Source: Xestospongia bergquistia (taxonomy: Eukaryota; Porifera; Demospongiae; Haplosclerida; Petrosiidae). From it: DNA of 64,000 nt. Under the pieces are notes generated by a model. The model searched no databases. It saw only the letters and a list, made by a program, of their open reading frames with translations, and was not told where the DNA came from. Made by a program: the position numbers and the translations under genes. The stretch covers positions 2,862,001 to 2,926,000 of the forward strand of contig OZ014413.1 in the NCBI GenBank assembly GCA_963965975.1, in the 5' to 3' direction. Positions 1 through 64,000 of the stretch are shown piece after piece. Each line of letters begins with the position of its first letter. Position 1 is the stretch's first letter.

Positions 1-488
1 CCTGCAAATGGATTACTGTTCCAGATCCTAGTGGTATCTGTAAAGAATGTAAAAAGTGCTAAGGAAATATTTATACACTCACAGCAGTACACAGTAGCAT
101 CACAAGAGTCAGTATTATAACATTCACTATTAATGTCTGTAGAAAATGAACACTGAAATATAGTGAGGTAGTTTCTATTAGAACAATTGAGTTTATCCAT
201 CTTCATTGACAGAGTGTCAGTCCCATAACTAAACAGAGTTATTTAAAACTTGACTTACTAGTACGATTATAAATTCTAACCTCACTAATCCAGCTCTAGA
301 GTAACTTGATGCTCCAGTATATCCCAATTGATGACAGATGACATTAGCTTCAGTAGAATTGTAGTGGTAATCGTCACAGATGTTACCCCATTCGTTATTG
401 TAATAGACTCTCACAATACCATAGTAATAAGATGATGAGGCATACCCATCACGATATAAAATTATAGCACCATTTTGAGCAAAATCAG
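1..488 (-). CDS. G1 module 12, cut by window edge
   Basis: Exons: B 281-488 and 83-228, complete; A first exon 1-37 only, reading [13 protein letters not shown]. The gene continues to the left of the window. Confidence 0.88.
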
Positions 489-3400
489 CTAAATGATAAA
501 AGATTATCATAAGCTACTTGCTAAATTGAAGGATTATTGTATACAATTACTGGTCACCACATGTTTAACAATATCACAACAATAACCTAACATAATGATA
601 TAATTACTTACAAATTAAGCCAGAACAAGTAGTTTTTGAATTAGAAGGCCTTGATTGTGAACTGCTGTAAACTAAAGAATAAAATAATCATAATAAGTAG
701 ACCTAAGTCATTAGATCATTTAACAAAGTATGCAAATTTCTTGATATAACAACTTACTACATGTAACAGTAACATCCTCAGAGTGGTTACAACTAGTTAT
801 TGATGTTGATGGACAGGAATTTCTAGTACCATAACATGTGTCAGAGGAAGAACTAGACATGTTTGTACTCCAAATTGGTTGACTGGAATTACCAGACCTG
901 AATAATAGTCAAATATTATTGATTGTTGTATACAACAATAGAATAAAATGATATAAGTGGACATATAAACATGATCCAAAAGGACTGACTGGCAAACAAA
1001 CGAAAAACAAGTTTATTGAAAATGATAAAAAGTTTCATACTTAAACAAAAATTATTTTAGCTAGTTACTTGCATTTACAATACTTACAGACTTAAGTGAT
1101 TGTATTTGTGGTAATAATTATATCCTAGTTGTTTACAGAAAGTTCTAGCATCAGTAGAATCAAATCCATTATCACATATTGTTCCCCACTCTCCATTACA
1201 ATAGACCTCTACACGTCCCTCATTCGAATAATTTCCTCCCTGAAGACGTATCATACCTGAAAATGGATTACTGTTCCAGATCCTAGTGGTATCTGTAAAG
1301 AATGTAAAAAGTGCTAAGGAAATATTTATACACTTACAGCAGTACACAGTAGCATCACAAGAGTCAGTATTATAACATTCACTATTAATGTCAGTAGAAA
1401 ATGAACACTGAAATATAGTGAGGTAGTTTCTATTAGAACAATTGAGTTTATCCATCTTCATTGACAGAGTGTCAGTCCCATAACTAAAGAGAGTTATGTA
1501 AAACCTGACTTACTAGTACGATTATAAATTCTAACCTCACTAATCCAGCTCTAGAGTAACTTGATGCTTCAGTATATCCCAATTGATGACAGATGACATT
1601 AGCTTCAGTAGAATTGTAGTGGTAATCGTCGCCGATGTTACCCCATTCGTTATTATAATAGACTCTCACAATACCATAGTAATAAGATGATGAGGCATAC
1701 CCATCACGATATAAAATTATAGCACCATTTTGAGCAAAATCAGCTAAATGATAAAAGATTATCATAAGCTACTAATAAGATTATCATAAGATTATTATAA
1801 ACTGCTACTTGGTAAATTGAATTATTATCATATATAGTTATTTGTCAACACACCTGTTCAACACTCTTATAACAATGGCCTAATACAATAATATAATTAC
1901 TTACAAATTAATCCAGAACAAGAAGTTTTTGAATTAGAAGGCTTTGGATATGAACTGTTGTAAACTAAAGAATCAAATTGTGATAATGAGTAAACTTAAG
2001 TAATTAGATCATTTAACAAAGTATGCATATTGTTCTGTATAAGAACTTACTACAAGTGACAGTAATATCTTCATAGTGGTTACAACTAGTTATTGAAGTT
2101 GATGGACAGGAGTTTATAGTACCATAACATGTGTCAGAGGAAGAACTAGACATGTATGTACTCCAAATTGGTTGACTAGAATTACCAGACCTGAATAATA
2201 GCCAAAGAACTTAATATAAAAAGAGAATAAAATGATTCAAGTAGAGATATATTTTATTGAAGTATCTAAACAGTGTCATACTTAAACAATATTTACTGTA
2301 GCTAGTTACTTTGTTTATAATACTTACAGACTTAAATGATCATATTTGTGGTAATAATTATATCCTAGTTGTTTACAGATAGTTCGAGCATCAGTAGAAC
2401 CAAATCCATTATCACATATTGTTCCCCACTGTCCATTACAGTAGACCTCAACACGTCCCTCATTCGAATAATTTCCTCCCTGAAGACGTATCATACCAGA
2501 GAAAGGATTACTGTTCCAGATCCTAGTGGTATCTGTAAAGAATGTAAAAAGTGCTAAGCAAATATTTATACACTCACAGCAGTACACAGTAGCATCACAA
2601 GAGTCAGTATTACTACATTCACTATTAATGTCTGTAGAAAATGAACACTGAAATATAGTGAGGTAGTTTCTATTAGAACAATTGAGTTTATCCATCTTTA
2701 TTGACAGAGTGTCAGTCCCATAACTAAAGAGAGTTATTTAAAACCTGACTTACTAGTACGATTATAAATTCTAACCTCACTAATCCAGCTCTAGAGTAAC
2801 TTGATGCTCCAGTATATCCCAATTGATGACAGATGACATTAGCTTCAGTAGAATTGTAGTGGTAATCGTCACAGATGTTACCCCATTCGTTATTGTAATA
2901 GACTCTCACAATACCATAGTAATAAGATGATGAGGCATACCCATCACGATATAAAATTATAGCACCATTTTGAACAAAATCAGCTAAATGATAAAAGATT
3001 ATCATAAGCTACTAATAAGATTATCATAAGATTATTATAAACTGCTACTTGGTAAATTGAATTATTATCATATATAGTTATTTGTCAACACACCTGTTCA
3101 ACACTCTTATAACAATGGCCTAATACAATAATATAATTACTTACAAATTAATCCAGAACAAGAAGTTTTTGAATTAGAAGGCTTTGGATATGAACTGTTG
3201 TAAACTAAAGAATCAAATTGTGATAATGAGTAAACTTAAGTAATTAGATCATTTAACAAAGTATGCATATTGTTCTGTATAAGAACTTACTACAAGTGAC
3301 AGTAATATCTTCATAGTGGTTACAACTAGTTATTGAAGTTGATGGACAGGAGTTTATAGTACCATAACATGTGTCAGAGGAAGAACTAGACATGTATGTA

Positions 3401-6400
3401 CTCCAAATTGGTTGACTAGAATTACCAGACCTGAATAATAGTCAAATAACTTAATATAAAAAGAGAATAAAATGATTCAAGTAGACATATATTTTATTGA
3501 AGTATCTAAACAGTGTCATACTTAAACAATATTTACTGTAGCTAGTTACTTTGTTTATAATACTTACAGACTTAAATGATCATATTTGTGGTAATAATTA
3601 TATCCTAGTTGTTTACAGATAGTTTGAGCATCAGTAGAACCAAATCCATTATCACATATTGTTCCCCACTGTCCATTACAGTAGACCTCAACACGTCCCT
3701 CATTCGAATAATTTCCTCCCTGAAGACGTATCATACCTGCAAATGGATTGCTGTTCCAGATCCTAGTGGTATCTGTAAATAATGTAAAAAGTGCTAAGGA
3801 AATATTTATACACTCACAGCAGTACACAGTAGCATCATAAGAGTCAGTGTTAGTACATCCACTATCAATGTATGTAGAGAATGAACACTGAAATATGGTA
3901 AGGTAGTTGCTACTATCACAGTTGAGGTCATCCATTTTCATAGACAGAGTGTCAGTTCCATAACTAAACAGAGATATTTAAAATCTGACTTACATGCATG
4001 ATTATAATTTCTAACCTCACTAATCCAGCTCTAGAGTAACTAGAGGCTGCAGTATATCCCAATTGACGACAGATGACATCAGCTTCAGTAGAATTGTAGT
4101 TGGCATCATCACAGATATTACCCCATCCATTATTGTAATAGACCCTCACAGTACCATAGTAATAAAATGATGAGGCAGACCCATTACGAGATAAAATTAT
4201 AGCACCATTTTGAGCAACGTTAGCTAAGTATTAAAAGATATCATACATTAATTGCTAACTGAAAGGATTATGATGTATAGTCAATAGACATGCTTTACAA
4301 GCATAATATAATAATGTAATTACTTACAAATTAATCCAGAACAAGTAGTTTTTGAATTAGAAGGCTTTGAATATGAACTGCTGTAAACTAAAGAGTAAAA
4401 TAATGATAATATGTAAACCTAAGTCATTATATGTTTTAACAAAGTTTGAAAATTGCTTGATATAACAACTTACTACATGTAACAGTAACATCCTCAGAGT
4501 GAAAACAACTAGTTATTGAAGTTGATGGACAGGAATTTCTAGTACCATAACATGTATCAGAGGAAGAACTAGACATGTATGTACTCCAAATTGGTTGACT
4601 GGAATTACCAGACCTGAATAATTGTCAAATAATTATGATTATTGTATGCAACAATTGAATAAAATGAAACAAGTGGACAAATAGATACATGATCTAAAAC
4701 AATTATTGAATAAGGTGAGTACCAAAGAAAGATAAATATAATTTTATTGAAATAAACATACATTTTCATAATTCAAACAAAAAATATTTTAGATAGGTAC
4801 ATTGATTAATAGTACTTACAGACTTAAGTGATCATATCTATGGTAATAATTATATCCCAGTTGTTTACAGATAGTTCTAGCATCAGTAGAACTAAATCCA
4901 TCATCACATATTGTTCCCCATTGTCCATTACAGTAGACCTCAACACGTCCCTCATTCGAATAATTTCCTCCCTGAAGACGTATCATACCAGAGAAAGGAT
5001 TACTGTTCCAGATCCTAGTGGTATCTGTAAAGAATGTAAAAAGTGCGAAGGAAATATTTATACACTCACAGCAGTACACAGTAGCATCATAAGAGTTAGT
5101 ATTGTTACATCCACTATCAATGTATGTAGAGAATGAACACTGAAATATAGTGAGGTAGTTGCGAGTAGCACAGTTGAGGTCATCTATCTTCATAGATAAA
5201 GTGTCAGTGCCATAACTAAACAAATATAATGCAAAGAGTGATTTTTAGATAGTTCTAACCTTGCTAATCCAGCTCTAGTGTAACTAGATGCTCCCGTATA
5301 CCCCAATTGATGACAGATGACATTAGCTTCAGCAGAATTGTAATAATAATCATCACAGATGTTACCCCATCCATTGTAATAGACCCTCACAATACCATAG
5401 TAATAAGATGATGAGGCAAACCCATTACGGAATAAAATAATAGCACCATTTGTAGCTAGATAGAAATAGATCAATATACTTATAATAACCATCTAACAAA
5501 ATAAAGACATATTCATAATCATTATACATATCATTATAATTAGTACAATCAAGTGAATGAATGTTTTTTAAGTAAAGCTAGAAATATTTTCACAATCTCA
5601 GACTTCAAAATATATATTGAATGCAATTATGTAGATTATCAAAGCTTTAGCTAAAGTTTATTGAATTAAGAAATTAGAAAAGTGAAAGGAAGGAGCATAA
5701 ATTTTAATTATTATTATATGTCACTTACAAATTAGTCCAGAACATGTAGCTTTTAAATTAGAAGGCTTTGCATATGAACTGCTATAAACTAGAGAATAAA
5801 TATAAAATATGATTAAACCTAAGCAATTACATCATTTAACAAAAGCTTGATATAACAACTTACTACATGTGACAGTAACATCCTCAGAGTGAAAACAACT
5901 AGTTATTGATGTTGATGGACAGGAATTTCTAGTACCGTAACATGTGTCAGAGGAAAAACTATACATGTATCTACTCCAAATTGGTTGACTGGAACCACCA
6001 TATCTATTATAGTGATTAAATGATCTATTTAATCCAAATTATTTATTTATAAACTATGTTTTATGTATGAAATCAATGTCTGTAGAATTACTAGTTCGTA
6101 ATTTTGTTCATTGGTACTCACCTTATTGAATAAGGTGAGTACCAATGAACAAAAAGTATAATTTTAATGAAATAAACAAACATTTTTATAACTCAAACAA
6201 TATTTTAGATAGTTACATTAATTAATAGTACTTACAGACTGAGGTGATCATATTTATAGTAATTGTTATATCCCAGTTGTTTACAAATAGTACGAGCATC
6301 AGTAGAACCAAATCCATCATCACATATTGTTCCCCACTGTCCATTACAATAGACTTCCACTCGACCTTGATTAGGATAATGACCTCCTTGAAGACGTATC

Positions 6401-9400
6401 ATACCAGAGAATGGATTACTGTTCCAGATTCTAGTGGTATCTTTAACAAACACAATAAGTGCTTTAAAATATATTGACACACTCACAGCAGTAGACAGTA
6501 GCATCATAAGAGTTAGTATTAGTACATCCACTATCAATGTATGTAGAGAATGAACACTGAAATATAGTGAGATAGTTGCTACTAGCACAGTTGAGGTCAT
6601 CCATTTTCATAGACAGAGTGTCAGTCCCATAACTAAACAGAAATATTTAAAACCTGATTTATATGTATGATTATAAGTTCTAACCTCACTAATCCAGCTC
6701 TAGAGTAACTAGAGGCTCCAGTATATCCCAATTGATGACAGATGACATTAGCTTCAGTAGAACTGTAGTGGTAATCGTCACAGATATTACCCCATCCATT
6801 ATTGTAATAGACCCTCACAATACCATAGTAATAAGATGATGAGGTATATCCATAACGAGATAAAATAATAGCACTATTTGTAGCTAGATAGGTATAGATC
6901 AATATATTCATCAAAGTACAGTAACAAAAATAAAGGCATATTTATAATCATAACACATATTACTATAATTTGTACAAACAAAAATTAATTTTTTTCAAAG
7001 CAAAGCTAGAAATATCATTACAATTTCAGGCTTCAGTATAGATATTGAACATATTTATGTAGATTCTTAAAGCTTTAAGTAAAATCTTAGTTAATTATGA
7101 AAGTAGTAAAGTGAAGTGAAGGAGCATAAAAATCTAGACTGAAAAGCTCAGCTTCAGTGGAACTAAGCCAAATGCCAATAAATATAGTATGGGATTTCAG
7201 TAGATGATAAATGTAAGTAGAGTAATCTTGTTAGCGAGGTAGAGTTGCTATTAATAACAAATAAGTTAATAATATAATTAAAATCATAAATTAAATTTAA
7301 TATTAGATATTACTTACAAATTAGTCCAGAACAAGTTGTCTTTGTATTAAATGATTTGGAATAAGAGGTGCTATAAGCTAAAGGAAACAAGATCTCTTTT
7401 TATTAATAAATTGCAAGTATTATACTAAGAATATTTTAAAGAAGGTAGCAAGTGGATGAAATTTATCACAATGATGGTATATTGATTGAATTGAAATTTT
7501 TGATGTAAATACGTAACAGTAATTGTATAAATAATATAGCTTTAGACATTTTGTTAATCAAAAACATCAATTATGCATAAAATACAGAATTAAAACAATT
7601 GTTAACCTTTAGGCTACTAAAACTGCATTTACAGTTATTTCTTAAGTATTAATACTACTGTAGTTACCATTGTTAATAGTTACAGAAGAATTATTAAGTT
7701 ACAGTAAATTTTAAAACAATATCATTTGGTTTTCAAAAGACTAATTCTGATAAGATTATTATTGTTTAATGTAGGCTTGGGCTTAAAATACAAAATGTTA
7801 TGTCAATAAGGAAATAACATTTCTCTTTATCTTAATAACACAAAATGAGAGTTAATTGATATTATTACTTACTACATTCCACAGTAACATCTTCATAGTG
7901 GAAACAACCACTGACTGAACTTGATGGACAAGAATTACGAGTACCATAACATTTGTCAGAGGAAGAACTAGACATGTATCTACTCCAAATAGGTTGACTG
8001 GAATTACCAGATCTATTATAGTGAAACAATTCTGTCATTTATAAACCACAACTGTTTTATGCATTCATTAATGTTTGCATAATTACTATTTTCTACACAT
8101 ACAGACTAAGATAATTACTACTTCCTATACTTACAGACTGAGGTGATCATAATTATAGTAATTGTTATACCCCAGTTGTTTACAAATAGTCCGAGCATCA
8201 GTAGAACCAAATCCATCATCACATATTGTTCCCCACTGTCCATTACAATAGACTTCCACTCGACCTTGATTAGGATAACTACCTCCTTGAAGACGTATCA
8301 TACCAGAGAATGGATTGCTGTTCCAGACCCTTGTGGTATCTGTAACAAACACAACAAGTGCTTAGAAAATTATAGACAGACTTACAGCAGTACACAGTGG
8401 CATCATAAGAGTTAATGTTAGTACATCCACTATCAATGAAAGTAGAGAATGAACACTGAAATATAGTGATGTAGTTGCTACTGGCACAGTTGAGGTCATC
8501 CATCTTCATTAATAGAGTGTCAGTCCCATAACTAAAAAGAGATATTTAAAACCTGACTTACATGTATGATTATAAGTTCTAACTTCATTAATCCAGCTCT
8601 AGAGTAACTTGATGCTCCAGTATATCCCAATTGATGACAGATGACATTAGCTTCAGCAAAACTGTAGTGGTAATCGTCACAGATATTACCCCATCCATTG
8701 TAGTAGACTCTCACAATACCATAGTAATAGGATGATGAGACATACCCATTACGAGATAAAATAATAGCACCATTTGTAGCTAGATAGAAATATTTTAATG
8801 TACTCATAATAATCAATTAACAATAATAATTATAAACATATTCATAATCATTATATGTATTAGTATAATTAGTATAAACAAGTGAATGAATGTTTTTAAG
8901 CAAAGCTAGAAATATTATGAGTATTCAGTAGATGATTAATGCAAATATTGAAAACTTGTTGACAATGTAGAGTTGCTATAAATGGCAACTAAGTTAATAA
9001 TATAATTGAAATCATAAGTTATAATTATCATTAGATGTCACTTACAAATTAGTCCAGAACAAGTAGTCTTTGTATTAGATGATTTGGAATAAGAGGTGCT
9101 GTAAGCTAAAGGAAATGAGGTTTATATATTGCAAATATTATACTAAGAATATTATAAAGATGGTAACAAATATTGAAAGTAGAGAGTTAATTGATATTTT
9201 ACTTACTACATTCCACAGTAACATCTTCATAGTGGAAACAACCACTGACTGAACTTGATGGACAAAAATTACTAGTACCATAGCATTTGTCAGAAGAAGA
9301 AGTAGACATGTATCTACTCCAAATAGGTTGACTGGAACTACCAGATCTATTATAGCGAAGCAATTTTGTTTAATCCAAAATTATCATTAATAAACTGCAA

Positions 9401-12400
9401 CTATTTTGTATATAAATTTATGTCTGTATAAGTACTAGTTCTTAAACTTACAGACTGAGGTGATCATATTTATAATAATTGTTATATCCCAGTTGTTTAC
9501 AAATAGTCCGAGCATCAGTAGAATCAAATCCATCATCACATATTGTTCCCCATTGTCCATTACAATAAACTTCCACACGACCTTGATTAGGATAACTACC
9601 TCCTTGAAGACGTATCATACCAGAGAATGGATTACTGTTCCAAATCCTAGTGGTATCTGTAACAAACACAACAAGTGCTTATGAAGATATCGATATGCTT
9701 ACAGCAGTACACAGTAGCATCATAAGAGTTAGTATTAGTACATCCACTATCAATGAAAGTAGAGAATGAACACTGAAATATAGTGAGATAGTTGCTACTA
9801 GCACAGTTGAGGTCATCCATCTTTATTAATAGAGTGTCAGTCCCATAACTAAAAAGAGGTATTTAAAACCTGACTTACATGTATGATTATAAGTTCTAAC
9901 CTCTTTAATCCAGCTCTAGAGTAACTTGATGCTCCAGTATATCCCAATTGATGACAGATGACATTAGCTTCAGCAAAACTGTAATGGTAATCGTCACAGA
10001 TGTTACCCCATTCGTTATTGTAATAGACCCTCACAATACCATAGTAATAGGATGATGAGGCATACCCATTACGATATAAAATTATAGCACCATTTTGAGC
10101 AACATCCGCTAAATAATAAAAGATTATCATATACTAATTGCTAACTGAAAGGATTATCATATACAGTCATTACACATGCCCTACAAACATCATATAATAA
10201 TGTAATAACTAACAAATTAATCCAGCACAAGTAGTTTTTGAATTAGAAGGCTTTGAATGTGAACTGCTATAAACTAAAGAATACAATAACAATAATGAGT
10301 AACCCTAAGTAAGTACATCACATAACAAAGTATGCAAATTATTCAATATAACAACTTACTACATGTAACAGTAACATCCTCAGAGTGAAAACAACTAGTT
10401 ATTGAAGTTGATGGACAAGAATTATTAGTACCATAACATTTGTCAGAGAAAGAACTAGACATGTATCTACTCCAAATAGGTTGACTGGAACTACCAGATC
10501 TATTATAGTGAAACAATTCTGTTTAATCCAAATCTGTCATTTATAAACTGCAACTATTTTATATATTAATTTATGTCTGTATAAGTACTAGTTCATAAAC
10601 TTACAGACTGAGGTGATCATATTTATAATAATTGTTATATCCCAGTTGTTTACAAATAGTCCGAGCATCAGTAGAACTGAATCCATCATCACATATTGTT
10701 CCCCACTGTCCATTACAATAGACTTCCACACGACCTTCATTAGGATAACTACCTCCTTGAAGACGTATCATACCAGAGAATGGATTACTGTTCCAGATCC
10801 TAGTGGTATCTGTAACAAACACAACAAGTGCTTATGAAAATACTGATACACTTACAGCAGTACACAGTAGCGTCATAAGAGTTAGTATTAGTGCATCCAC
10901 TATCAATGTATGTAGAGAATGAACACTGAAATATAGTGAGGTAGTTGCTACTAGCACAGTTAAGGTCATCCATCTTCATAGACAGAGTGTCAGTTCCATA
11001 ACTAAACAGAGATATTTAAAATCTGACTTACATGTATGATTATAAGTTATAACCTTACTAATCCAGCTCTAGAGTAACTAGAGGCTCCAGTATATCCTAA
11101 TTGATGACAGATGACATTAGCTTCAACAGAATTGTAGGAGAAGTCATCACAGATATTACCCCATCCATTATTGTAATAGACCCTCACAATACCATAGTAA
11201 TAGGATAATGAGGCATATCCATAACGAGATAGAATAATAGCACTATTTGTAGCTAGATAGAAATAGATCAATATACTTTTAAGTATTAACTACTAATAGT
11301 AAATACATATTCACGATCATTACACACATTTCTACAATTAGTATAAACAACTAAATTAAAGTTTTTCAAGCAAACCTAGAAATATTATCACAATCTTAGA
11401 CTTCAATATATATATTGAACATAATTATGTAGATTATTAAAGCTTTAACTAAAAATTTTAGGAAATTCAGAAATTAGAAAAGTGAAGTGAAGGGCATAAA
11501 GATTTAGATTGAAAGCTCAGCTTTAATAGAACTAAGCTGAACGCTAGTAAATATAACATAAGTTTAAGTAGATTATTAATGCAAGTAGTGCAATCTTGCT
11601 AACAAGATGGAGTTGCTATAATGGCAACTAAGTTAATGATATAATTAAAATCATAAAAATAATTATCATTAAATGTCACGTACAAATTAGTCCAGAACAA
11701 GTAGTTTTTGTGTTAGATGATTTAGAATAAGAGGTACTGTAAGCTAAAGTAAATGAGATCTTTTTATAATGATATTACAAATATTATGATAAGAATATTT
11801 TAAAGATGGTAGCAAATATTATGATTTGGATGAAATTTATTATGATGATATATAGACATTGAATTGATATGTTTGATGAAAATACATAACAGTAATTGTA
11901 TAGATCATATCGCTTTTGACACTTTATCAAATAATAAAATCAAGTTTGTATAGAATACAGTATTAGATTAGTTGTTGACTTTAGGCTACTAAAGCTACAT
12001 TTACAGTTATTTCTTTAAAATTAAACAACTTGTTGGTATTATTGCTGATAGTTATAGAAGAATTATGAAGAACAGTAAAATATAACAAATTATAATTTGG
12101 TATTACAAAACAATCATTCCCATAAATATTTTTTCGTTTTTTTATATGGGTATTGGTGAAAAAGTTATTTGCAAAATGTTATGTCAATATAGCAATCTCA
12201 AACTTTAATACAAATTTAGATTTAATTGATACTATCACTTACTACATTCCACAGTAACATCTTCAGAATGAAAACAACTACTGACTGAATTTGATGGACA
12301 GGAATTACGAGTACCATAACATTTGTCAGAGGAAGAACTAGACATGTATCTACTCCAAATAGGTTGACTGGAATTACCAGATCTATTATAGTGAAACAAT

Positions 12401-15400
12401 TCTGTTTAATCCAAATCTGTCATTTATAAACTGCAACTATTTTGTATATTAATTTATATTTGTATAATTACTAGTTCTTAAACTTACAGACTGAGGTGAT
12501 CATATTTATAATAATTGTTATATCCCAGTTGTTTACAAATAGTCCGAGCATCAGTAGAACTGAATCCATCATCACATATTGTTCCCCATTGTCCATTACA
12601 ATAGACTTCCACACGACCTTGATTAGAATAATTACCTCCCTGAAGACGTATCATACCAGAGAATGGATTACTGTTCCAGATCCTAGTGGTATCTGTAACA
12701 AACACAACAAGTGCTTATGAAAATATTGATACACATACAGCAGTACACAGTAGCATCATAAGAGTTAGTATTAGTGCATCCACTATCAATGTATGTAGAG
12801 AATGAACACTGAAATATAGTGAGATAGTTGCTACTAGCACAGTTGAGGTCATCTATTTTCATTAATAGAGTGTCAGTCCCATAACTAAAAGAGATATTTA
12901 AAACCTGCTTACATGTATGATTATAAGTTCTAACCTCACTAATCCAGCTCTAGAGTAACTAAAGGCTCCAGTATATCCTAATTGATGACAGATGACATTG
13001 GCTTCAAAAGAACTGTAGTAGTAGTCATCACAGATATTACCCCATCCATTATTGTAATAGACCCTCACAATACCATAGTAATAAGATGATGAGGCATACC
13101 CATTACGAGATAGAATAATAGCAATATTTGTAGCTAGATAGAAGTAGATCAATATACTTTTAAGTATTAACTACTAATAGTAAATACATATTCACAATCT
13201 TTATACACATTTCTACAATTAATATAAAACAACTAAATTAAAGTTTTTCAAGCAAACCTAGAAATATTATCACAATCTTAGACTTCAATATATATATTGA
13301 ACATAATTATGTAGATTATTAAAGCTTTAACTAAAAATTTTAGGAAATTCAGAAATTAGTAAAGTGAAGTGAAGGGCATAAAGATTTAGATTAAAAGCTC
13401 AGCTTTAATAGAACTAAGCTGAACGCTAGTAAATATAACATAAGTTTAAGTAGATTATTAATGCAAGTAGTGCAATCTTGTTAACAAGATAGAGTTGCTA
13501 TAATGGCAACCATAGGGGTAGGAAGATAGTAGGGATTAGGGGGGCTAAAATGTTATCAGTAGTAATAACTGTTCCATGAGCAGGGGGTTGCATTCCCAGT
13601 AGTTTTTAATTTGAAACCTTGTAAAATTATGTTAAATGATAACAGATGATTATGACTGAATTAAAGAAATGGCATATATACACATGACCTAATCATAGGC
13701 GTATCTAGGTCTCTAATAGTACTAGGGCTTATTAATTGTTCATCATTATTAATTAGTAGTTATTAATAGTTATTAATAATTTTAAACCTTTACTCATGTA
13801 CATGTACATTAATTTCTGGTATTGTGGGTATATCACTAAACCCCTGTGGACTCTCTAGATCAATACCATCACCATCTGTATCTGTACAGTACAAGAAAAG
13901 TAGAAAGAATAATTTCAAACTACTTTGTTTTTAGATTCGCACCTATCCACCTTGATCATTTAATCCTCTAATTTCTCTGTCAATTTCTACATTGCTGTCA
14001 TTTCCACTGTCATCTTCCTCACTCTCTGGAACATTGTATGCTTTTTTGATGGACCTACACCACTACTGCTACTATTACTAGAAGCCCAAAAGTCTTTAAG
14101 AGTTCTTTTCAAATTGGCACTCAGCCTGACTCAGATCACAGTTCACAAAGTGTTCAAAACTCACTCAAAAGAAACTATAAGGCAAAACTCTACAATACAG
14201 GTGCTAATTGCTAACTGTGAAGTCATACACATGGACTGGTATGTGTTAGTGGTTAATCTTCGTGTAAATAAACAGATTATGAATTTCATTTTGGTTAAAG
14301 CAATGAATTTATTTTTTGAAAAAATATAATTAATTTTGGTCTGAGCAAGTTTAGATACGCCTATGGACCTATTAAAATATGTTAATAATGTCCAAAATAG
14401 TTTACATGTCTCTCGTTGCTGGTTACAAAATCCTTTGTGATACTTAATAAATTAATGATTATTTTTTTAAAAATAGAGTAACTTTACTTTGTTAACAATA
14501 TTAGGGGGGCTAAGCCCCCCTTTAATCAACATTAGGGGGGCTAAAGCCCCCCTAGCCCCCCTGGTTCCTACCCCTATGATGGCAACTAAGTTAATGATAT
14601 AATTAAAATCATAAATATAATTATCATTAAATGTCACGTACAAATTAGTCCAGAACAAGTAGTTTTTGTGTTAGATGATTTAGAATAAGAGGTACTGTAA
14701 GCTAAAGTAAGTGAGATCTTTTTATAAAAACATTACAAATATTATGATAAGAATATTTTAAAGATGGTAGCAAATATTATGATTTGGATGAAATTTATTA
14801 TGATGATATATAGACATTGAATTGATATGTTTGATGAAAATACATAACAGTAATTGTATAGATCATATCGCTTTTGACACTTTATCAAACAATAAAATCA
14901 AGTTTGTATAGAATACAGTATTAGATTAGTTGTTGACTTTAGGCTACTAAAGCTACATTTACAGTTATTTCTTTAAAATTAAACAACTTGTTGTTATTAT
15001 TGATGATATTTATAGAAGAAGTATCTATAACAGTAAAACATAACAAATTATAATTTGGTATTACAAAAAACTCATTCCCATAAATATTTTTTCGTTTTTT
15101 ATATGGGTATTGGCGAAAAAGTTATTTGCAAAATGTTATGTCAATATAGCAATCTCAAACTTTAATACAAATTTAGATTTAATTGATACTATCACTTACT
15201 ACATTCCACAGTAACATCTTCAGAGTGAATACAATTACTGACTGAACTTGATGGACAGGAATTACGAGTACCATAACATTTGTCAGAGGAAGAACTAGAC
15301 ATGTATCTACTCCAAATAGGTTGACTGGAATTACCAGATCTATTATAGTGAAACAATTCTGTTTAATCCAAATCTGTCATTTATAAACTGCAACTATTTT

Positions 15401-49498: not shown

Positions 49499-49615
49499 CT
49501 AAATGATAAAAGATTATCACACTCTAATTGCTAACTGAAAGGATTATCATATATATTTAATACATATGTTTAACAATGTTTTAGCATTTACATATTACAA
49601 TATGTAAATACTAAC

Positions 49616-50612: not shown

Positions 50613-50966
50613 CTAATTGATAAAAGATTGTCAAATTCTAGTTAATGATTGAAAGGATTTTTATGTATTGTACATATTTAAGAAAATTGTATCATTGACC
50701 TAACACAATAACATATTACTAATTATTAAAATAGACCTGCATTCTCTAACTACAAACTAAATGACTAAGTACAAATTTGAGTCAATAGTCATATTACTAT
50801 TGTCTACACAAACGTACTGGATGAAATGTAAAGATTAAAAAAATTTCATTGTTTCAAGATACTCATCAACAATGCTTCAAAGAAGGTACAATAAGGAAAA
50901 CTATGTAGCTTATAATATAATTTATGTCATATATATTATAGTCATAACTATGTTGTGATAACTTAC

Positions 50967-51495: not shown

Positions 51496-51742
51496 CTGAA
51501 TAATAGTCAAATAACTTAATATAAAAAGAGAATAAAATGATTCAAGTAGACATATATTTTATTGAAGTATCTAAACAGTGTCATACTTAAACAATATTTA
51601 CTGTAGCTAGTTACTTTGTTTATAATACTTACAGACTTAAATGATAAAATATTATCTTACACTAATTGCTAAATGAAATAATTATCACAATATAGTCAAT
51701 ACACATGTTTAAGAAAATTAATACATAGTCGTAATTACTCAC

Positions 51743-52799
51743 AAATTAATCTGGAACAAGTGGTCTTTGAATTAGAAGGTTTTGAATATGAACTGTTGTA
51801 ATCTAAAATTAAAATAATAAAAACGAATAAACCTAAGTAATTATATCATTTAACAAATTGTGCAAGTTGATTCATATAACAACTTACTACATGTAACAGT
51901 TACATCCTCAGAGTGGCCATAACTAGTTATTGAAGTAGATGGACAGGAATTTCTAGTACCATAACATGTGTCAGAGGAAGAACTGTACATGTTTGTCTTC
52001 CAAATTGGTTGATTGGAATTACCAGATCTATTATAGTAATACAAAACCATGTAATCCTGATATATCATTAATGATATATCAGGATTATAAATATTGAATA
52101 TTTAACAGTGTTATGCATTTAGTCTCTGAAATGTTATTACTTCTTTACACTTACAGGCTGAGGTGATCATAATTATAATAACTATTATATCCCAGTTGTT
52201 TACAGATAGTTTGGGCATCAGTAGAACTAAATCCATTATCACATATTGTTCCCCATTGTCCATTACAATAGACCTCTACACATCCTTCATTTGGATAACT
52301 ACCTCCCTGAAGACGTATCATACCAGAGAAAGGATTGCTGTCCCAGATTCTAGTGGTATCTGCAACAAAATGATAAGTAATAAGGAAATATTTTTACTCA
52401 CAGCAGTACACAGTAGCATCATAAGAGTTAGTGTTATTACATCCACTATCAATGTATGTATCAAAAGAACACTGAAATATAGTAAGGTAGTTGCTATTAG
52501 AACAGTTGAGGTCATCCATCTTCATAGACAAAGTGTCAGTGCCATAACTAGATAAAGATAATGTAGAGCATGATTATTAGATAATTCTAACTTCACTAAT
52601 CCAGCTCTAGAGTAACTTGATGCTCCAGTATATCCCAATTGATGACAAATGACATTAACTTCAGTAGAACTGTAGTAGTAATCATCACAGATATTACCCC
52701 ATCCATTATTGTAATAGACCCTCACAATACCAAAGTAATATGTTGACGAAGTATACCCATTACGGTATAGAATAATAGCACCATTTTGAGCAACATCAG
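51743..52799 (-). CDS. G3 module 4 (SRCR B + A + linker)
   Basis: Exons: B 52592-52799 and 52402-52547; A 52155-52359 and 51888-52027; linker 51743-51802. Exon lengths are normal. One A Cys is Tyr (TSYGHSEDV). The A second exon, linker and flanking introns (51646-51900) are almost identical to G4 63630-63900. A perfect 36-bp palindrome lies in the A intron at 52052-52087. Confidence 0.82.
52052..52087. repeat. Perfect 36-bp palindrome
   Basis: Both arms are TAATCCTGATATATCATT. It lies in the intron inside the A domain of G3 module 4. Other modules have one arm only (for example near 34240 and 48765), so it arose by a local inverted duplication. Confidence 0.93.
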
Positions 52800-53134
52800 C
52801 TAAATGATAAAAACTTATAAAATTCTAATTAATGATTGAAAGCATTTTTATGTATTGTACATATTTAAGAAAATTGTATCATTGACCTAACACAATAACA
52901 TATTACTAATTATTAAAATAAACCTGGAATAACTAACTATAAACTAAATGACTAAGTACAAATTTGAGTCAATAGTCATATTACTATTGTCTACACAAAC
53001 GTACTGGATGAAAAGATAAAATTTCATTGTTTCATTAAACCCATCTTCAAAGAAGGTACAATGAAGAAAATTGTACTTTGTAATATAATTTATGTCAGAT
53101 ATATTATAGTCATAACTATGTTGTGATAACTTAC

Positions 53135-54457
53135 TAATTAATCCTAAACAAGTAGTATGTTTATTAGAAGGTTTTGAGTTTGAAGTGCTATAAGCTGAAG
53201 GAAATATTATACATATATTTATCTGTTGAAACACAAAACATTATTACATAGTAGACAGTCTAAGTATATATTTTAGATGATGTTAAAGTAGTAAATGCTA
53301 TGATGTGTCTACAATTGATGATAGATACAGATTGAATGAAATGCTAGTTATAAATACATCACAGTAATTAATTCATGTTTAAAGAACTCAAGCAGTTGAT
53401 AAAGTTCAAGACTGAACCCAATATATTATTTTGAATCCAATTTATTATAATAGTTATACTAATTTTATTTTAAGGAGGTATTAACACCTCTCTCCTTCTT
53501 TAAAAATTATAATAATACAAGCTACCAGATAGCTGAAACTATTACTTACTACATGTGATAGTAATATCTTGATAGTGGTTACAACTAGTTATTGAAGTCG
53601 ACGGACAGGAATTTCTAGTACCATAACATGTGTCAGAGAAAGAACTGTACATGTCTTCCAAATTGGTTGATTGGAATTACCAGATCTATTATAGTAATAC
53701 AAAACCATGTATATCAGAATAATATTTATAATATTATAGGATTATAAATATTTAATACGTAATAGAGTTATGCATTAGTGTCTGAAATGTTATTAATTCT
53801 TTACACTTACAAGCTGAGGTGATCATATTTGTGGTAATAATTATATCCCTGTTGTTTACAGACAGTTTGGGCATCAGTAGAATCAAATCCATCATCACAT
53901 ATTGTTCCCCACTGTCCATTACAGTAGACTTCAACATGTCCTTCATTTGAATATCTACCTCCCTGAAGACGTATCATACCAGAGAAGGCATTACTGTTCC
54001 AGATTCTAGTAGTATCTTAAAACAAAAATGATAAGTATTAAGGAAATATTTTTACTCACAGCAGTACACAGTAGCATCATAAGAGTTAGTGTTATTACAT
54101 CCACTATCAATGTATGTATCAAAAGAACACTGAAATATAGTAAGGTAGTTGCTGTTAGAACAGTTGAGGTCATCCATCTTCATAGATAAAGTATCAGTGC
54201 CATAGCTAAACAGAGATCATGTAGAGTATGATTATTAGATAATTCTAACCTCACTAATCCAGCTCTAGAGTAACTAGAAGCTCCAGTATATCCCAATTGA
54301 TGACAGATGACATTAGCTTCAGTAGAACTGTAGTAGTAATCATCACAGATATTACCCCATCCATTATTGTAATAGACTCTCACAATACCATAGTAATAGG
54401 ATGTTGAGACAATTCCATTACGAGATAGAACTATAGCACCATTTTGAGCAACATCAG
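53135..54457 (-). pseudogene. G3 module 3, 4-nt deletion
   Basis: Exons: B 54250-54457 and 54060-54205; A 53811-54015 and 53550-53685; linker 53135-53194. The A second exon is 136 nt instead of 140. Comparison with 51980-52020 shows a missing TTTG-type tetranucleotide after ACATG, near 53653. Confidence 0.82.
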
Positions 54458-54569
54458 CTAAATGACAAAAGATAATATAATTGTTAACTGAGAGGATTAC
54501 TGTATATAGTCAAAACACATGTTTAACAAGCTTATAAGATTTACTTAATTTAATAACATAATTACTTAC

Positions 54570-55603
54570 AAATTAATCCATCACAAGTTGTCTTTGAATT
54601 ATAAGTGTTTGAATATGAACTACTGTAGACTAAAGAATATTACAATGATAATGAGTAAACCTAAGATATTAATTCACTTAACAACTTACTACATGTGATA
54701 GTAACATCCTCAGAGTGGGTACAACTAGTAATTGAAGTTGATGGACAGGAATTTCTAGTACCATAACATATATGATAGTAAAAACTAGACATGTATGTAC
54801 TCCAAATAGGTTGATTGGAAGTACTCGGCCTGAATTAATGACAAATAATGTTAAAATATGTTCTCAATGCATGATAACCAAATTAAATAAAAAATAGATA
54901 GTTTAATATTATAAAATGACTACAAGTTTTAAGTATAATTATATGTAATTTGTCTCTTACACACTAAGGTGATCAAAATTATAGTAATAGTTATATCCGA
55001 GTTGTTTACAGATAGTTTGAGCATCAGTAGAACCAAATCCATTATCACATATTGTTCCCTATTGTCCATTACAATAGACCTCAACACGTCCTTCATTAGA
55101 ATAATTTCCTCCCTGAAGACGTATCATACCAGAGAATGGATTACTGTTCCAGATCCTAGTGATATCTATAACAAATGTAGAAATTTACTAAGTAAATATT
55201 TATGCACTTACAGCAGTAGACAGTAGCATCATAAGAGTTAGTATTAGTACATCCATTATCAATGTATGTAGAGAATGAACACTGAAATATAGTAAAGTAG
55301 TTGCTACTAGCACAGTTGAGGTCATCCATCTTCATAGATAAAGTATCAGTGCCATAACTAAACAGAGATAATGTAGACCTTGATTATTAGATAATTCTAA
55401 CCTCACTAATCCAGCTCTAGAGTAAGTTGATGTTCCAGTATATCCCAATTGATGAGAGATTACATTAGCTTCAGTAGAATTGTAGTAGAAATCATCACAG
55501 ATATTACCCCATCCATTGTAAAAAACCCTCACAATACCATAGTAATAAGATAATGAGTCATACCAATTACGAAATAAAATTATAGCACCATTACTTGGAG
55601 TAG
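54570..55603 (-). pseudogene. G3 module 2, premature stop and Cys loss
   Basis: Exons: B 55402-55603 and 55212-55357; A 54961-55165 and 54690-54829; linker 54570-54629. In A the Trp of GQWGTIC is TAG (near 55058-55060). In B the second conserved Cys is Ser (VISHQLGY). The B exon starts STPSNGAIIL. Confidence 0.82.
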
Positions 55604-55992
55604 CTAGATAGAAATAGATCAGTATACTCTAACTACCAACTAATAAAAGTAAATAAATACATGTTTATAATTATTATACATATTATTATTATTATTACAT
55701 GCTTAAGTGAATTAATTTTATTCAAATAAAACTAGAAATAACCTGACAATCTCAGTCTTCAATATATAATTGAACAAAATTATGTAACTTGTAAAAATTA
55801 GTAAAGTGAATTGAAGGAGCATAAAAAATTGCACTCTTAAGATGTTGTTTAAGATAACATGGGTTTTCTATAGATGATTAATGTAAGCAATGCAAGCTTG
55901 TTAGTCAGGTAGAGAGTCACTATTAATAACAATTATTAAGTTAATAATATAACCGAGATCATAATTTATAATTATAATTAGATATCACTTAC

Positions 55993-57451
55993 AAATTAGT
56001 CCAGAACAAGTACTCTTTCTATTAGTTGATTTGGAATAAGATGTGCTGTAAACTAAAGGAAATATTTTACATATATCAAAATATTTAGGAGATTCTTTAC
56101 ATTATGATAACAAAATATATCATAATTATCATCCTAAGAATATTTTAAAGTAATGTGGCTGCAATTTATCTTGATGATGGTATATAGATTGAAACACTTT
56201 TGTAAATACATCACTATAATTCAATAGATATAAATAGCTCCTATCACTTGGTTGAACAATAGAGTCAAGATTGAATAGAATACAGTATTTGATTACTTGT
56301 TAACCTACCTATATTCATAATTATATCTTTAGAATTAATAATTCTAGTAGCTACCATTGTTGATAGTTACAGAAAGATTATAAAGAACAATAAACTTTAA
56401 AATATTATCATGTGGTATTTCAAAGAACTCATTCTGATAAGCTTTTTAGATTTTTTACAGATCCATGCCTCAAACCTATTTAGAAAATGTTATTATAATG
56501 AGGTAATAACACTTCTCTTCATCATAATAATTCAAATTAGGAGTTAGTTAATATATGCATTATCACTTACTATATTCCACAGTAACATCTTCAGAGTGGG
56601 AACAACCACTAACTGAACTTGATGGACAGGAATTACTAGTACCATAACAAGAGGAAGAACTAGACATGTTTGCACTCCAAATTGGTTGATTAGAATTACC
56701 AGATCTATTATAGTAATACAATAACCAGTTTAATCCTCATTTATTATTTATAAACCACAACTGTTTAATGCATTAACTAATATCTATATAATTACCACTT
56801 CTCACACTTACAAATTGAGGTGATCATAATTATAGTAGCCATTATATCCTAGTTGTTTACAAACAGTCTGAGCATCATTAGAACTAAATCCATTATTACA
56901 CATTGTTCCCCACTCTCCGTTACAGTAGACTTCCACACGACCATGATTAGAATAATTAGCTCCATGAAGACGTATCATACCAGAGAAAGGATTACTGTTC
57001 CAGATCCTAGTGGTGTCTGTCACAAAAATCATATTGGTATTAAGATATTTTATACTCACAGCAGTACACAGTGGCATCATAAGAGTTAGTATTATTACAT
57101 CTACTATCAATGTATGTATCAAAAAAACACTGAAATATAGTGAGGTAGTTACTACTGGCACAGTTGAGATCATCAATCTTAATAGATAAAGTATCAGTGC
57201 CATAGCTAGACAATGATAATGTAAAACACGGATTATTAGATATTTCTAACCTCACTAAACCAGCTCTAGAGTAACTTGATGCTCCAGTATATCCCAAGTG
57301 ATGACAGATGACATTAGCTTCAGTAGAACTGTAGTAGGAATCATCACAGATATTACCCCATCCATTATTATAATAGACCCTCACAATGCCATAGTAGTAA
57401 GATGACGAGGTATACCCATTCGATACACCATTATGGCGCCGTTTGTTAAAG
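55993..57451 (-). pseudogene. G3 module 1, frameshift and Cys loss
   Basis: Exons: B 57251-57451 and 57060-57205; A 56812-57016 and 56571-56704; linker 55993-56052. One base is missing at 57420/57421 (CCATTCGAT instead of CCATTACGA). The A second exon lacks six bases in frame, and its last Cys codon is TAT (Tyr) just before the donor. Confidence 0.8.
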
Positions 57452-58554: not shown

Positions 58555-58629
58555 CATATGTAGAGTAAACCAAATAACTCAACAGAATTGCAAGAAGGAA
58601 GAAAACAGAGAACTGCTGCCTTCGGCCAT
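58555..58629 (-). pseudogene. G3 exon 1: signal-peptide exon with a 1-nt deletion
   Basis: The ATG is at 58627-58629. Compared with G1 and G2, one base is missing after the third codon, so translation from the ATG stops at FLQFC. The hydrophobic frame ([19 protein letters not shown]) is still open to the GTAAGT donor but has no upstream in-frame ATG before a TGA. Confidence 0.8.
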
Positions 58630-60344: not shown

Positions 60345-61075
60345 TCACTTTTTAAAGAGGTCAGTGTATCTTGGAGGAGGACCAGTCCTCTCTGGTTTTA
60401 CTTCATCATAGATTTCCTCTATTTTATAATAATCATACTCACTATGAACATCATCTAAACATTCATAAATTGGATTACCAAAAGCAGCTTGTACATGAGA
60501 AGGAGCTTGCCAATTGTTAGAGCTTTGCTGCTTAGATTCCTGTACAATGGGATTATGAGCAGGAAGTGTTGCCAAAGAAGTCAATGCAGCTGATCTGTTG
60601 AGTTTTCTGCCTTGATTTAGCTTCTTATTGTTAACTGATTGTTGTTGAAATGGAAGATGACCTGCTTGATGTTTATAAGGAGCTGATAGTTGTTGTGGAT
60701 GATGCAATTTAATTTGTGCTTCATGTTGTCCAATTGCATTACTACTTTCATTGCAGGGTTGAAGAGGTCTACGATTAAATATCGAGTAATGTATTGGTGG
60801 TATTACATAATCAGAGTATAGGTTCTCTCCTTGTGGTATAGTATTCAAGGTTGTATTAGCAAGTGATTTAGATTGATCAGTTTCAGGTGTTCTTTCGGTA
60901 TTTTCAAGAGATCCAATATTCTGTAATTCAATTTGTTGGGTGTTGCTACTTCTAACATTTTGTCTTTTCCGTTTTTTCCAAATAGCAACAACAGTTATAC
61001 AGCAAAGAAAACCCACAATAATTATTACAAAAACAGAGCCAATTGTACCACCAATTAGTAGAAGTATGTTTAATG
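60345..61075 (-). CDS. G4 terminal exon: transmembrane helix and tail with one PPxY
   Basis: The helix reads [20 protein letters not shown] and continues hydrophobic, then [14 protein letters not shown]. The tail ends [11 protein letters not shown] before TGA (60345-60347), which keeps the C-terminal PPxY. The upstream PPPPYNESS of G2 is [10 protein letters not shown] here, so that motif is lost. The tail is about 210 residues. Confidence 0.92.
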
Positions 61076-64000
61076 CTAGAAAACAATAAGTAATCATAAC
61101 TATGATAATAGAGTTATAGTATTGCTCTGATAAAGGATCTAATCAATATATATAGTTATTTACTAATATCATTATTATAGTTTATACTTTAGTATTGACT
61201 TACAGACAGTGGTAGGAAGAGCAGAAGTAACATTGCGACATGTAGTTCTTAATGTTGTTACTGATGACAAACTCCTTGGATTACCTACAAATGTGATTTT
61301 GTTAGAACATGAAATATGTACAGTCATCTCAAGGTATATCAGAATGTGTCCTTATCCCATAACAATTTATGCGGATACTGTGAAGTTCTTAGACTTATGC
61401 AATAGCTAAACATCATTAAATAATATTAGAGGCATTCACAATGTCTTTACTTGAATTGATACTATACTTTTCTACTTTTACAAGGAAAAATTGGAAAGTT
61501 TTACCAATGTCTACTTCCAACTTACTACATTGAATTGTGACATCTTCAGAATGACTACATCCTTGATAAGAACTAGTAGGACAACTCTGACATGAACCCA
61601 AACAAGAAAAACTACTACTACAAGCTAAGTTACTCATCCAAATATGTTGAGATGAACTACCAGACCTATAACAAATATAATATACTTCCAGTATAGACTA
61701 TTGTACTAAACATACAAAGAAAGATGATTATATCTTGTATAGTTTGAATATCCCAATTGTTTACAGACAACAAGTGCATCATTAGAATCAAATCCATCAT
61801 CACATATTGTTCCCCACTGTCCATTACAATAGACCTCAACACGTCCTTCATTAGAATAATTTCCTCCCCGAAGACGTATCATACCAGGAAAAGGATTGCT
61901 GTTCCAGATCCTTGTAGAATCTATATTGACAATAAATGTAGATGTTATACTATAATAAAACTATTAATACTCACAACAGAACACAGTAGCATCATAAGAG
62001 TTAGTGTTAGCACATCCACTATCAATGATAGTAGAGTAGGAGCATTGTAGGATAGTGAGATAGTCATTGTTAGAACAGTTCACATTATTCAGTAGCAATG
62101 GGCTGTAGTCAGTGCCATAACTAAAATATTAACAAATAAATACTCAACGAGAAGAATAAATTTAAGAAACTAACCTCACTAATTCAGCTCTAGAGTAACT
62201 TGAAGCTCCAGTATATCCCAATTGATGACAGATAACATCAGCTTCATATTGACTGTAGTAGGTATCACCACAGATATTACCCCATTGTCCAGTGATATAG
62301 ATCTGTACTATACCATAGTAATTGGAGGATAAGGTATATCCATTACGATAAAGACGTGTAGTACCAAAACCAATATCGCTAGAAGAATCTATATCAACAT
62401 AATAACAAAACTGATATTGCTAATGAGGTAATTAAATTCAAGTTCTAAGACAATAAAACGTCCAAAACATATATATATAACATATAACTCAATATAACAG
62501 AATTACTTACAAATTAATCCAGAACAAGTAGTTTTTGAATTAGATGGCTTTGAATATGAACTGCTATATACTAAAGAATAAAATAATGATAATTAGAAAT
62601 AATAGATTATTTATAAAAAATTATTTTTTTTAAATATAACATCTTACTACATGTGACAGTGATATCTTCATAGTGAGTACAACTAGATATTGAAGTTGAT
62701 GGACAGAAGTTTCTAGTACCATAACATGTGTCAGAGGATGAACTAGACATGTATGTACTCCAAATTGGTTGACTGGAATTACCAGATCTAAATAATAGTC
62801 AAGTAACTATGATTGTTGTATACAACAATAGAATAAAAAATGGACTGTAAACATAAAACAAACTGTCAAACAAAGAAAAAACAATTTATTGAAGTAGATA
62901 ATACAGTTTCATACTTAAACAATAATCACTGCAAAGAGTGACATTGGTTTACAGTACTTACAGACTTAAGTGATCATATTTGTGGTAATAATTATATCCC
63001 AGTTGTTTACAGATAGTTTGAGCATTAGTAGAATTAAATCCCATATCACATATTGTTCCCCACTGTCCATTACAATAGACCTCAACACGTCCCTCGTTAG
63101 AGTAATTTCCTCCTTGAAGACGTATCATGCCAGGGAAAGGATTACTGTTCCAGATCTTAGTGGTATCTGTAACAAACACAGCAAGTGCTTATGAAAATAT
63201 ATTGCTACACTCACAGCAGTAGACAGTAGCATCATAAGAGTTAGTATTAGTACATCCACTATCAATGTATGTAGAGAATGAACACTGAAATATAGTGAGA
63301 TAGTTGCTACTAGCACAGTCGAGATCATCCATCTTTATAGATAGAGTGTCAGTGCCATAACTAATCAGAGATATTGAAAACCTGATTTACATATATGATT
63401 GTAAGTTCTAACCTCACTAATCCAGCTCTAGAGTAACTTGATGCTCCAGTATATCCCAATTGATGACAGATGACATTAGCTTCAGCAGAATCATAGGAGT
63501 AGTCATCACAGATATTACCCCATCCATTATTATAATAGACCCTCACAATACCATAGTAATAAGACAATGAGTCATACCCATTACGAGATAAAATTATAGC
63601 ACCATTTTGAGCAAAATCAGCTAAATGATAAAATATTATCTTACACTAATTGCTAACTGAAATAATTATCACAATATAGTCAATACACATGTTTAAGAAA
63701 CTTAATACATAGTCGTAATTACTCACAAATTAATCTGGAACAAGTGGTCTTTGAATTAGAAGGTTTTGAATATGAACTGTTGTAATCTAAAATTATAATA
63801 ATAAAAACGAATAAACCTAAGTAATTATATCATTTAACAAATTGTGCAAGTTGCTTCACATAACAACTTACTACATGTAACAGTTACATCCTCAGAGTGG
63901 CTACAACTAGTTATTGAAGTTGATGGACAGGAGTTTCTAGTACCATAACATGTGTCAGAGGATGAACTAGACATGTATGTACTCCAAATTGGTTGACTGA
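60345..64000 (-). CDS. G4: multi-SRCR receptor-like gene, 5' end outside window
   Basis: The 3' part holds four complete SRCR domains (two B+A pairs), part of a fifth, the stalk and the terminal exon. All exon lengths are normal and splice sites are GT-AG, so this part looks intact. Architecture matches G2 exon for exon. The gene continues to the right of the window. Confidence 0.9.
61204..62388 (-). CDS. G4 membrane-proximal SRCR pair and stalk
   Basis: Exons: B' 62175-62388 and 61975-62120; A' 61716-61920 and 61526-61665; stalk 61204-61284. The stalk peptide includes [14 protein letters not shown]. In B' an Asp after the first Cys is Gly (NICGD). The A' second exon has six Cys, as in G2. 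Confidence 0.92.
62511..63620 (-). CDS. G4 penultimate module (SRCR B + A + linker)
   Basis: Exons: B 63413-63620 and 63215-63360; A 62962-63166 and 62648-62787; linker 62511-62570. The A first exon has WGTICDMGF. The B exon starts [11 protein letters not shown]. Confidence 0.92.
63727..64000 (-). CDS. G4 linker and part of an A second exon
   Basis: Linker 63727-63786. The A second exon begins at 63872 (its 3' end) and runs off the window at 64000, about 11 bases short of its full 140. The sequence here is the closest relative of 51646-51900 in G3. Confidence 0.9.

Follow-up and report, generated by a model that had tools for sequence, protein, structure and literature searches.

The window, a stretch of 64,000 nucleotides from the sponge Xestospongia bergquistia (C3:2862001-2926000), lies in a tandem cluster of eight genes made of alternating SRCR domains of two types, A and B, and neighboring genes carry very different numbers of these modules. 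The predicted products have the plan of a type I receptor: a signal peptide, (SRCR-A, SRCR-B)n, a short Ser/Thr-rich stalk, one membrane helix, and a probably unstructured tail. From what is known of the SRCR family, we infer that these are probably scavenger or adhesion receptors whose binding is multivalent and depends on cations, with tails that serve endocytosis or recruit ubiquitin ligases, and that unequal crossing-over makes their valency drift, in a way resembling human DMBT1. A tandem family of SRCR receptors with a membrane helix and tail had been proposed in an earlier note on this DNA, and our analysis supports it, with a type I membrane plan. Genome-wide matches reported below were drawn from 146,460,797 bases in 21 contigs.

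All SRCR matches in the region were on the same strand. We built HMMs of the SRCR half-exons from the window, ran them over the window and 150 kb of flanks (214 kb in total), and found 380 matches on the minus strand and 0 on the plus strand, counting one broken G3 exon twice and including one match cut at the edge of the fetched DNA. The A1 and B1 profiles overlap, and a few first-half exons were labeled either way in the first scans. Read 5' to 3' on the minus strand, the eight genes are G7, G6, G5, G4, G3, G2, G1, and Ga. The number of A-B units was 3 in G7, 5 in G6, 8 in G5, 21 in G4, 4 in G2, 30 in G1, and 11 in Ga, corresponding to 60 domains in G1, 42 in G4, 22 in Ga, and 8 in G2; G3 has about 25. 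Genes with all SRCR exons intact had from 6 to 60 domains, and the four that also had a long tail (G2, Ga, G4, and G1) had from 8 to 60. Twenty-three domains of G1 and 4 complete domains of G4 are inside the window. The earlier description of four neighboring paralogues on one plan, with 8 domains in G2, at least 23 in G1, and about 25 in G3, and with a large spread in module number, thus holds. As one set of receptors, the four paralogues do share the plan, but G3 is broken, which had been missed. The gene anatomy, as read from the sequence, is solid, and the features in the window are listed below (Table 1).

Table 1. Positions in the window of the receptor gene parts and of an element in a G1 intron.
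Feature	Position	Strand	Remarks
G1 SRCR array, 5' part, 23 complete domains	1..17959	-	60 in whole gene; continues left to C3:2839274
Degraded Ty3/gypsy-like element in G1 intron 1, antisense	18486..21846	+	RVT_1 8.5e-23, rve 1.3e-10
G1 signal-peptide exon, phase-1 end	24193..24268	-	
G2 exon for membrane helix and cytoplasmic tail; two PPxY, FNPAY, YEDV	28682..29478	-	
G2 Ser/Thr-rich stalk exon	29599..29679	-	
G2 SRCR array, 8 domains (4 A-B units), 16/16 exons intact	29923..34950	-	
G2 signal-peptide exon	36314..36389	-	
G3 membrane/tail exon, frameshift between helix and tail	39263..39785	-	
G3 stalk exon	39901..39981	-	
G3 SRCR array, pseudogene, about 25 domains	40240..57423	-	frameshifts and stop
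G3 signal-peptide exon relic, frameshift after ATG	58555..58629 (approximate limits)	-	
G4 membrane/tail exon; one PPxY, FGNPIY, YDEV	60348..61075	-	
G4 stalk exon	61204..61284	-	
G4 SRCR array, 3' end	61527..64000	-	42 domains in whole gene; continues right to C3:2957250

The exons of the arrays were regular and mostly intact. Each domain is encoded by two exons, a first half and a second half separated by a phase-2 intron, with phase-1 introns at both borders of the domain, and both splice sites were present for 373 of the 380 half-exon matches. The repeat unit A1-A2-B1-B2 was followed without exception in G1, G2, G4, G6, G7, and Ga. In these six genes every SRCR exon was open and had its splice sites (120/120 in G1, 84/84 in G4, 44/44 in Ga, 16/16 in G2, 20/20 in G6, and 12/12 in G7), and we found no lesions in the 296 exons. 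Exons were flagged in the other two genes: 1 of 31 in G5, which is missing one A2 exon, and 7 of 52 rows in G3.

The exons that mark the ends of a receptor gene were found at the ends of the arrays and not within them. A conserved signal-peptide exon ending in phase 1 is upstream of seven of the eight genes (as a relic in G3), and there is none for G5. Inside the arrays there was no good signal-peptide exon; the two weak matches (47% identity, E 0.82) were both in G3. A short Ser/Thr-rich stalk exon was found in six of the eight genes, G5 and G7 being the exceptions, and no good stalk exon was found inside any array; the genes end with an exon for the membrane helix and tail. With one signal exon in seven of the eight genes and no good one inside the arrays, we therefore conclude that these are long genes. 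It is extremely improbable that the arrays are sets of separate small genes, given that signal and stalk exons of good quality were absent within arrays and present at their ends, and that splice phases were compatible throughout the intact genes. Genome-wide, the signal-peptide exon matched 27 places at E<=1 (15 on C3, 9 on C12, 2 on C1, and 1 on C14). Two 6-kb segments on C3 that are 97.4% alike, C3:2796181-2802239 (L009-L010) and C3:2824595-2830640 (L012), each contain a signal exon of neighboring genes.

The window also contains sequences of other kinds. The Ty3/gypsy-like element in intron 1 of G1 consists of reverse transcriptase and integrase pieces with broken frames and does not belong to the receptor, and a MULE transposase-like fragment at 27044-27310 (minus strand) scored 19.4 bits, below the Pfam cut-off of 27.6. 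There is a tandem array of 31/63-bp units at 26014-26290 with the palindrome TTATCCTAGGATAA inside it, and a 31-bp unit is present twice at 14492-14553, in a G1 intron, with the hairpin GGGGGGCTAAAGCCCCCC.

G3 is a pseudogene with six lesions. The reading frame shifts after the start codon in the signal exon and again within the first A1 exon. At 54.96-55.15 kb a stop interrupts a B1 exon. The frame is also shifted at 53.5 kb, in a B2 exon, and at 47.9 kb, in an A1 exon, and a final frameshift separates the membrane helix from the tail. Some of the missing-acceptor flags in this gene may reflect the +/-18-base limit of the search for splice sites, and we base the classification as a pseudogene on the frameshifts and the stop. 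Nineteen of the approximately 25 domains had both splice sites and no stop. G3 also has a tandem duplication of 3168 bp with 99.75% identity (40223-46560), which is either very recent or an assembly error.

Some of the other genes had short or incomplete ends. A long unbroken frame of helix plus tail was found only in G1, G2, G4, and Ga; apart from the frameshifted G3, the frame in G5 is open and without a helix, that in G6 has an early stop, and G7 has a match of 24 residues. Because G5 has no in-frame helix, G6 a short tail, and G7 a very short tail match, and because no stalk exon was found for G5 and G7, part of the cluster may be decaying. We considered whether the expansion as a whole might be mostly decaying or neutral, a product of replication or recombination error with little function. 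This is very unlikely. The six lesions of G3, the loss from G5 of the signal exon, one A2 exon, and an in-frame helix, the short tails of G6 and G7, and the tendency of repeats to slip are all in its favor, but six genes retain 296 SRCR exons in which no lesion was found, and the ratio of nonsynonymous to synonymous change (dN/dS) was 0.28.

Module number has grown recently in intact genes. We compared each array with itself, introns included, and found that G4 matched itself at an offset of 4052 bp with 98.2% identity over 17.5 kb. In G1, an offset of 1247 bp gave 92.8% identity over 17.5 kb, and one of 11,280 bp gave 98.1% over 7.4 kb. Near-identical repeats of this kind could partly be assembly error, although the G4 copies differ by about 2%. 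Variation in module number and recent tandem duplication in intact genes, at 98% identity with introns counted, are both supported.

The arrays appear to have grown above a fixed base next to the membrane. Modules in the middle of the arrays were best matched within their own gene in 53 of 73 cases for A and 56 of 76 for B. The membrane-proximal unit, by comparison, was closer to its counterparts in other genes than to its own neighbors (0.767 vs 0.692 for A and 0.805 vs 0.687 for B). At the N-terminal end, identity to counterparts versus own neighbors was 0.910 vs 0.856 for A and 0.826 vs 0.836 for B, and on the values for this first B module we did not uphold a conserved N-terminal unit. The simplest reading is array growth above a fixed membrane-proximal base. 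Array length would change by unequal crossing-over of the A-B unit of approximately 1.2 kb, or multiples of it, and the phase-1 borders would keep each gain or loss of a unit in frame. A further array of the same SRCR family is at C3:5612000-5646500. Its units follow each other at intervals of about 1.14 kb, a signal exon lies at 5646420, and, because many of its exons score equally, it has probably expanded recently.

The two domain types are SRCR domains and differ in their cysteines. One spliced example of each type was compared with Pfam PF00530 (cut-off 26.1 bits), and A scored 59.2 bits (5.3e-16) and B 67.2 bits (1.7e-18). Relatives in the PDB included CD163, CD5L, MARCO, DMBT1, and CD6, the first four being among the closest; the best stretch was mostly the B domain. 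We used 181 models of domains whose splice sites were found (89 A and 92 B, 19 of them from G3). The A-type has six cysteine columns, each occupied in 88 or 89 of 89 models, and two exons, and belongs to SRCR group A. The B-type has seven, each occupied in 91 or 92 of 92, which places it outside the six-cysteine group A and agrees in cysteine number with the seven-cysteine 'group C' of PMC10855680; its extra cysteine lies in the motif VEVYC (column 31). Neither type fits group B, which has eight cysteines and a single exon, as against six or seven columns and two exons here. Twelve of the 89 A domains have a seventh cysteine, in place of tyrosine at column 113, and versions reading DSCDATVYC are present in G1 frames.

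The modules were conserved in sequence. Mean pairwise amino-acid identity of A domains was 0.84 across genes and 0.87 within genes; for B domains the corresponding values were 0.81 and 0.85. Pooled dN/dS between genes, leaving out G3, was 0.28 for both types, and values within single genes ranged from 0.19 to 0.42, the highest being that of the G3 B domains. Between genes (dS > 0.05, without G3), dN/dS exceeded 1 in none of 2495 A pairs and none of 2500 B pairs; it was above 1 in 1 of 891 B pairs involving G3. On these values we rejected positive selection for the domain taken as a whole. Individual columns did vary non-synonymously above the mean synonymous rate (12 of 119 in A and 7 of 115 in B). 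Several of them are close to cation residues (A 42, 43, and 47; B 44, 49, 102, 103, and 106), which is suggestive, but these columns were chosen post hoc. The earlier note had proposed a diversifying recognition system. At the level of sequence this was not borne out: the domains are under purifying selection and mean module identity is 81-87%. Sequence diversification is therefore not the main trait of the family, and since the modules are conserved, the feature that varies is module number.

These results also bear on the idea that the receptors serve individual or self recognition, with allelic differences in module number read as identity. Recent unit duplications make length polymorphism likely, and in the sponge Halichondria panicea, for which the reference transcriptome is reported to contain >600 SRCR genes, expression of pattern-recognition receptor genes is described as individual-specific for the largest share of them (PMC8242945). 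However, the module sequence is conserved rather than hypervariable, and length alone would be a weak identity code, and we consider this role highly doubtful.

The residues of the SRCR cation site appeared to be divided between the two domain types. In SRCR8 of DMBT1, site 2 consists of D1019, D1020, and E1086, and site 3 of D1020, D1058, D1059, and N1081; change of either D1019 or D1020 (the CDD aspartates) is reported to abolish binding (PMC7043408). We placed the corresponding residues by anchoring on the flanking cysteines, so that the following counts reflect sequence alignment and not structure. In A domains, the Asp pair after the WGxIC cysteine was present in 84 of 89, and 68 of 89 had the 'site 3' acidic pair (DD) ahead of the LxC cysteine; the site-2 glutamate was present in 0 of 89, its place being taken by Tyr (75), Cys (12), or Asn (2). 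In B domains, the site-2 glutamate was present in 89 of 92, with D-D-E in 47 of 92 and D-[DN]-E in 78 of 92 (Asn was at the second Asp in 40 of 92). Residues of the IWST/IWSR type were at the place of the acidic pair in B, and none of the 91 of 92 domains listed had an acidic pair there. As a rule, neither A nor B keeps the whole dual cation site.

The loss of site residues was not peculiar to this family. Judged by eye, among the five best other SRCR matches of the genome, L001 retains the glutamate as well as both aspartate pairs; the cation residues are partly kept in L002 and L003, L004 keeps little, and L005 keeps none. Because L002 to L005 lose these residues as well, what is peculiar to the cluster is the complementary pattern in A and B. 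One speculative and rather unlikely reading is that the alternation is a division of labor, in which the dual cation site has been split between paralogous domains. Each A-B junction would then provide a composite binding site, of which one receptor could hold as many as 30; the spare cysteine may serve as a cross-link, and unequal crossing-over would set the valency.

The tails had motifs expected to bind endocytic adaptors and ubiquitin ligases, and these differed among genes. A search for similar tails gave 82 matching pieces; we took the 20 best loci, of which 15 had an unbroken frame from helix to stop, and dropped the other five as broken (L025, L036, L037, which is G3, L041, and L042, which is G5). 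The dropped G5 tail contains PPPSY and FGNPVY. PPxY was present in 10 of the 15 unbroken tails, at 22 sites, compared with a mean of 2.3 and a maximum of 7 in 500 shuffles; as for all of the tail motif counts, the sequences are related and the counts are not independent. PPxY was missing from G1 and Ga. Either PPxY or LPxY was present in 14 of 15 tails, the exception being G1, the longest receptor. An NPxY-like motif was at a homologous place in 5 of 15 tails (G1, G2, G4, Ga, and L043, by eye), the plain NPxY pattern was in 7 of 15, and Y[DE][DE][VI] was in 7 of 15. YxxPhi was present in all 15, and its 43 sites were hardly above the shuffles (mean 25.2, maximum 42). Compared with known PPxY-tailed membrane proteins, the G2 tail scored below the Pfam cut-offs for WBP-1 (17.8 bits, cut-off 28.1) and Commissureless (Comm; 13.1 bits, cut-off 27).

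The earlier note had given the family one conserved helix with a PPxY tail and had counted four tails in the window. There are three in the window (G2, G3, and G4), the tail of G1 being 23.3-23.8 kb to the left. The helix with a PPxY tail holds for part of the family, because the G1 tail is without PPxY and the G3 tail is frameshifted. PPxY is a frequent, non-defining feature of these tails. The motifs suggest that the tails may recruit WW-type ubiquitin ligases and PTB adaptors. Our literature search found no paper with SRCR and PPxY together.

Several features of the cluster have been described in other animals. Expansion of SRCR genes in tandem has already been published for a sponge, as have duplication in units of two domains and domains with 7 cysteines, and the long SRCR receptor is a kind known from sponges, sea urchins, and humans; the arrays here are unusually long. 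Amphimedon queenslandica has 296 SRCR genes, 158 of them in tandem arrays with one- and two-domain duplication units, and the 7-cysteine type is common there; it shares with our cluster the tandem expansion, signal peptide, SRCR array, membrane helix, and 7-cysteine type (PMC10855680). However, genes of the example cluster given in that source have 2 to 6 domains and mostly three exons per domain, in contrast to the two exons per domain, the 6-Cys/7-Cys alternation, and the 6 to 60 domains found here. Reference transcriptomes of two other sponges are reported to have >250 SRCR genes, and one SRCR gene of Aplysina responds to microbial signals (PMC6208332). In a preprint, single proteins of the sea cucumber Holothuria glaberrima are described with 1 to 51 SRCR domains and lengths reaching approximately 5,981 aa; most of these domains, and perhaps all, belong to the 6-cysteine type, and varied other domains accompany them (PMC13228809), compared with the 60 domains of G1, in pairs of two types and with about 6,970 SRCR residues.

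Human DMBT1/SALSA is a parallel for a variable number of modules within a gene. Like the cluster genes, it has a tandem SRCR array of variable length, with 7 to 20 domains per molecule (PMC4851238, PMC5435793, PMC7043408), and a mutation rate of 0.7-2.7% per generation has been reported at one repeat (PMC4851238). Its binding of bacteria scales with SRCR number, such that alleles with fewer domains bind fewer bacteria (PMC5435793), and its site is cation-dependent (PMC7043408). Unlike the products predicted here, DMBT1/SALSA is described as a secreted protein that also has SID, CUB, and ZP domains. The motif VEVLxxxxW, through which it binds bacteria, was only approached in our domains: none contained it, and VEVxxxxxW was present in 86 of 92 B and 0 of 89 A domains.

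The rods might instead work primarily in adhesion. The aggregation receptor of the sponge Geodia cydonium has 14 SRCR domains together with SCR modules and, like the predicted products of this cluster, is a membrane protein with a long SRCR array. By analogy, homogeneous rods would bridge cells and bind aggregation factor or matrix, their length setting their reach and not what they recognize. Homogeneous modules under purifying selection, a membrane-proximal unit conserved between genes, and a type I layout in which a signal exon, a stalk, and a helix are present all agree with this, as does the published SRCR-rich Geodia protein (PMC4491621, PMC4704026). However, no match to the SCR/Sushi modules (PF00084) of the Geodia receptor was found in the cluster, or anywhere on C3, among the best 150 of 408 genome candidates. 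We regard a primarily adhesive role as unlikely, with an appreciable chance of being right. A large Sushi-domain cluster is present elsewhere in the genome (C9:6839000-7016500), with equal-scoring matches repeated about 6.0 and 5.4 kb apart.

CD163 and MARCO, both among the PDB relatives of the module, are scavenger receptors, with 9 SRCR domains and 1, respectively. For the scavenger or adhesion receptors that we favor, the ectodomain would be a long multivalent rod in which cation sites bind polyanionic or glycan ligands on microbes, debris, matrix, or neighboring cells, with affinity coming from repetition. PPxY or LPxY in most tails would engage WW domains, including those of Nedd4-type ubiquitin ligases, and NPxY, carried by some of the genes, would engage PTB adaptors for endocytosis. 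Because the tails carry these motifs, the receptors would be expected to cluster and to be taken up and turned over together with their cargo. Several results weigh against this reading: neither domain type generally has a complete dual cation site, PPxY is missing from G1 and Ga, NPxY at the homologous place is limited to 5 of 15 tails, YxxPhi hardly exceeds the shuffles, and part of the cluster may be decaying.

If expressed at full length, the 60 domains of G1 would be among the longest SRCR arrays known, the largest that we met in the literature being the 51 of the preprint. The newest lead from this work is that A and B seem to share out the dual cation site between them, and the alternating A-B cassette gives a testable idea of how neighboring domains might each hold part of an SRCR cation site. 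Since the units are equivalent in-frame cassettes, we believe that the family lends itself to asking whether the binding of innate receptors is tuned through the number of repeats and not through their sequence, an issue that work on human DMBT1 has addressed.
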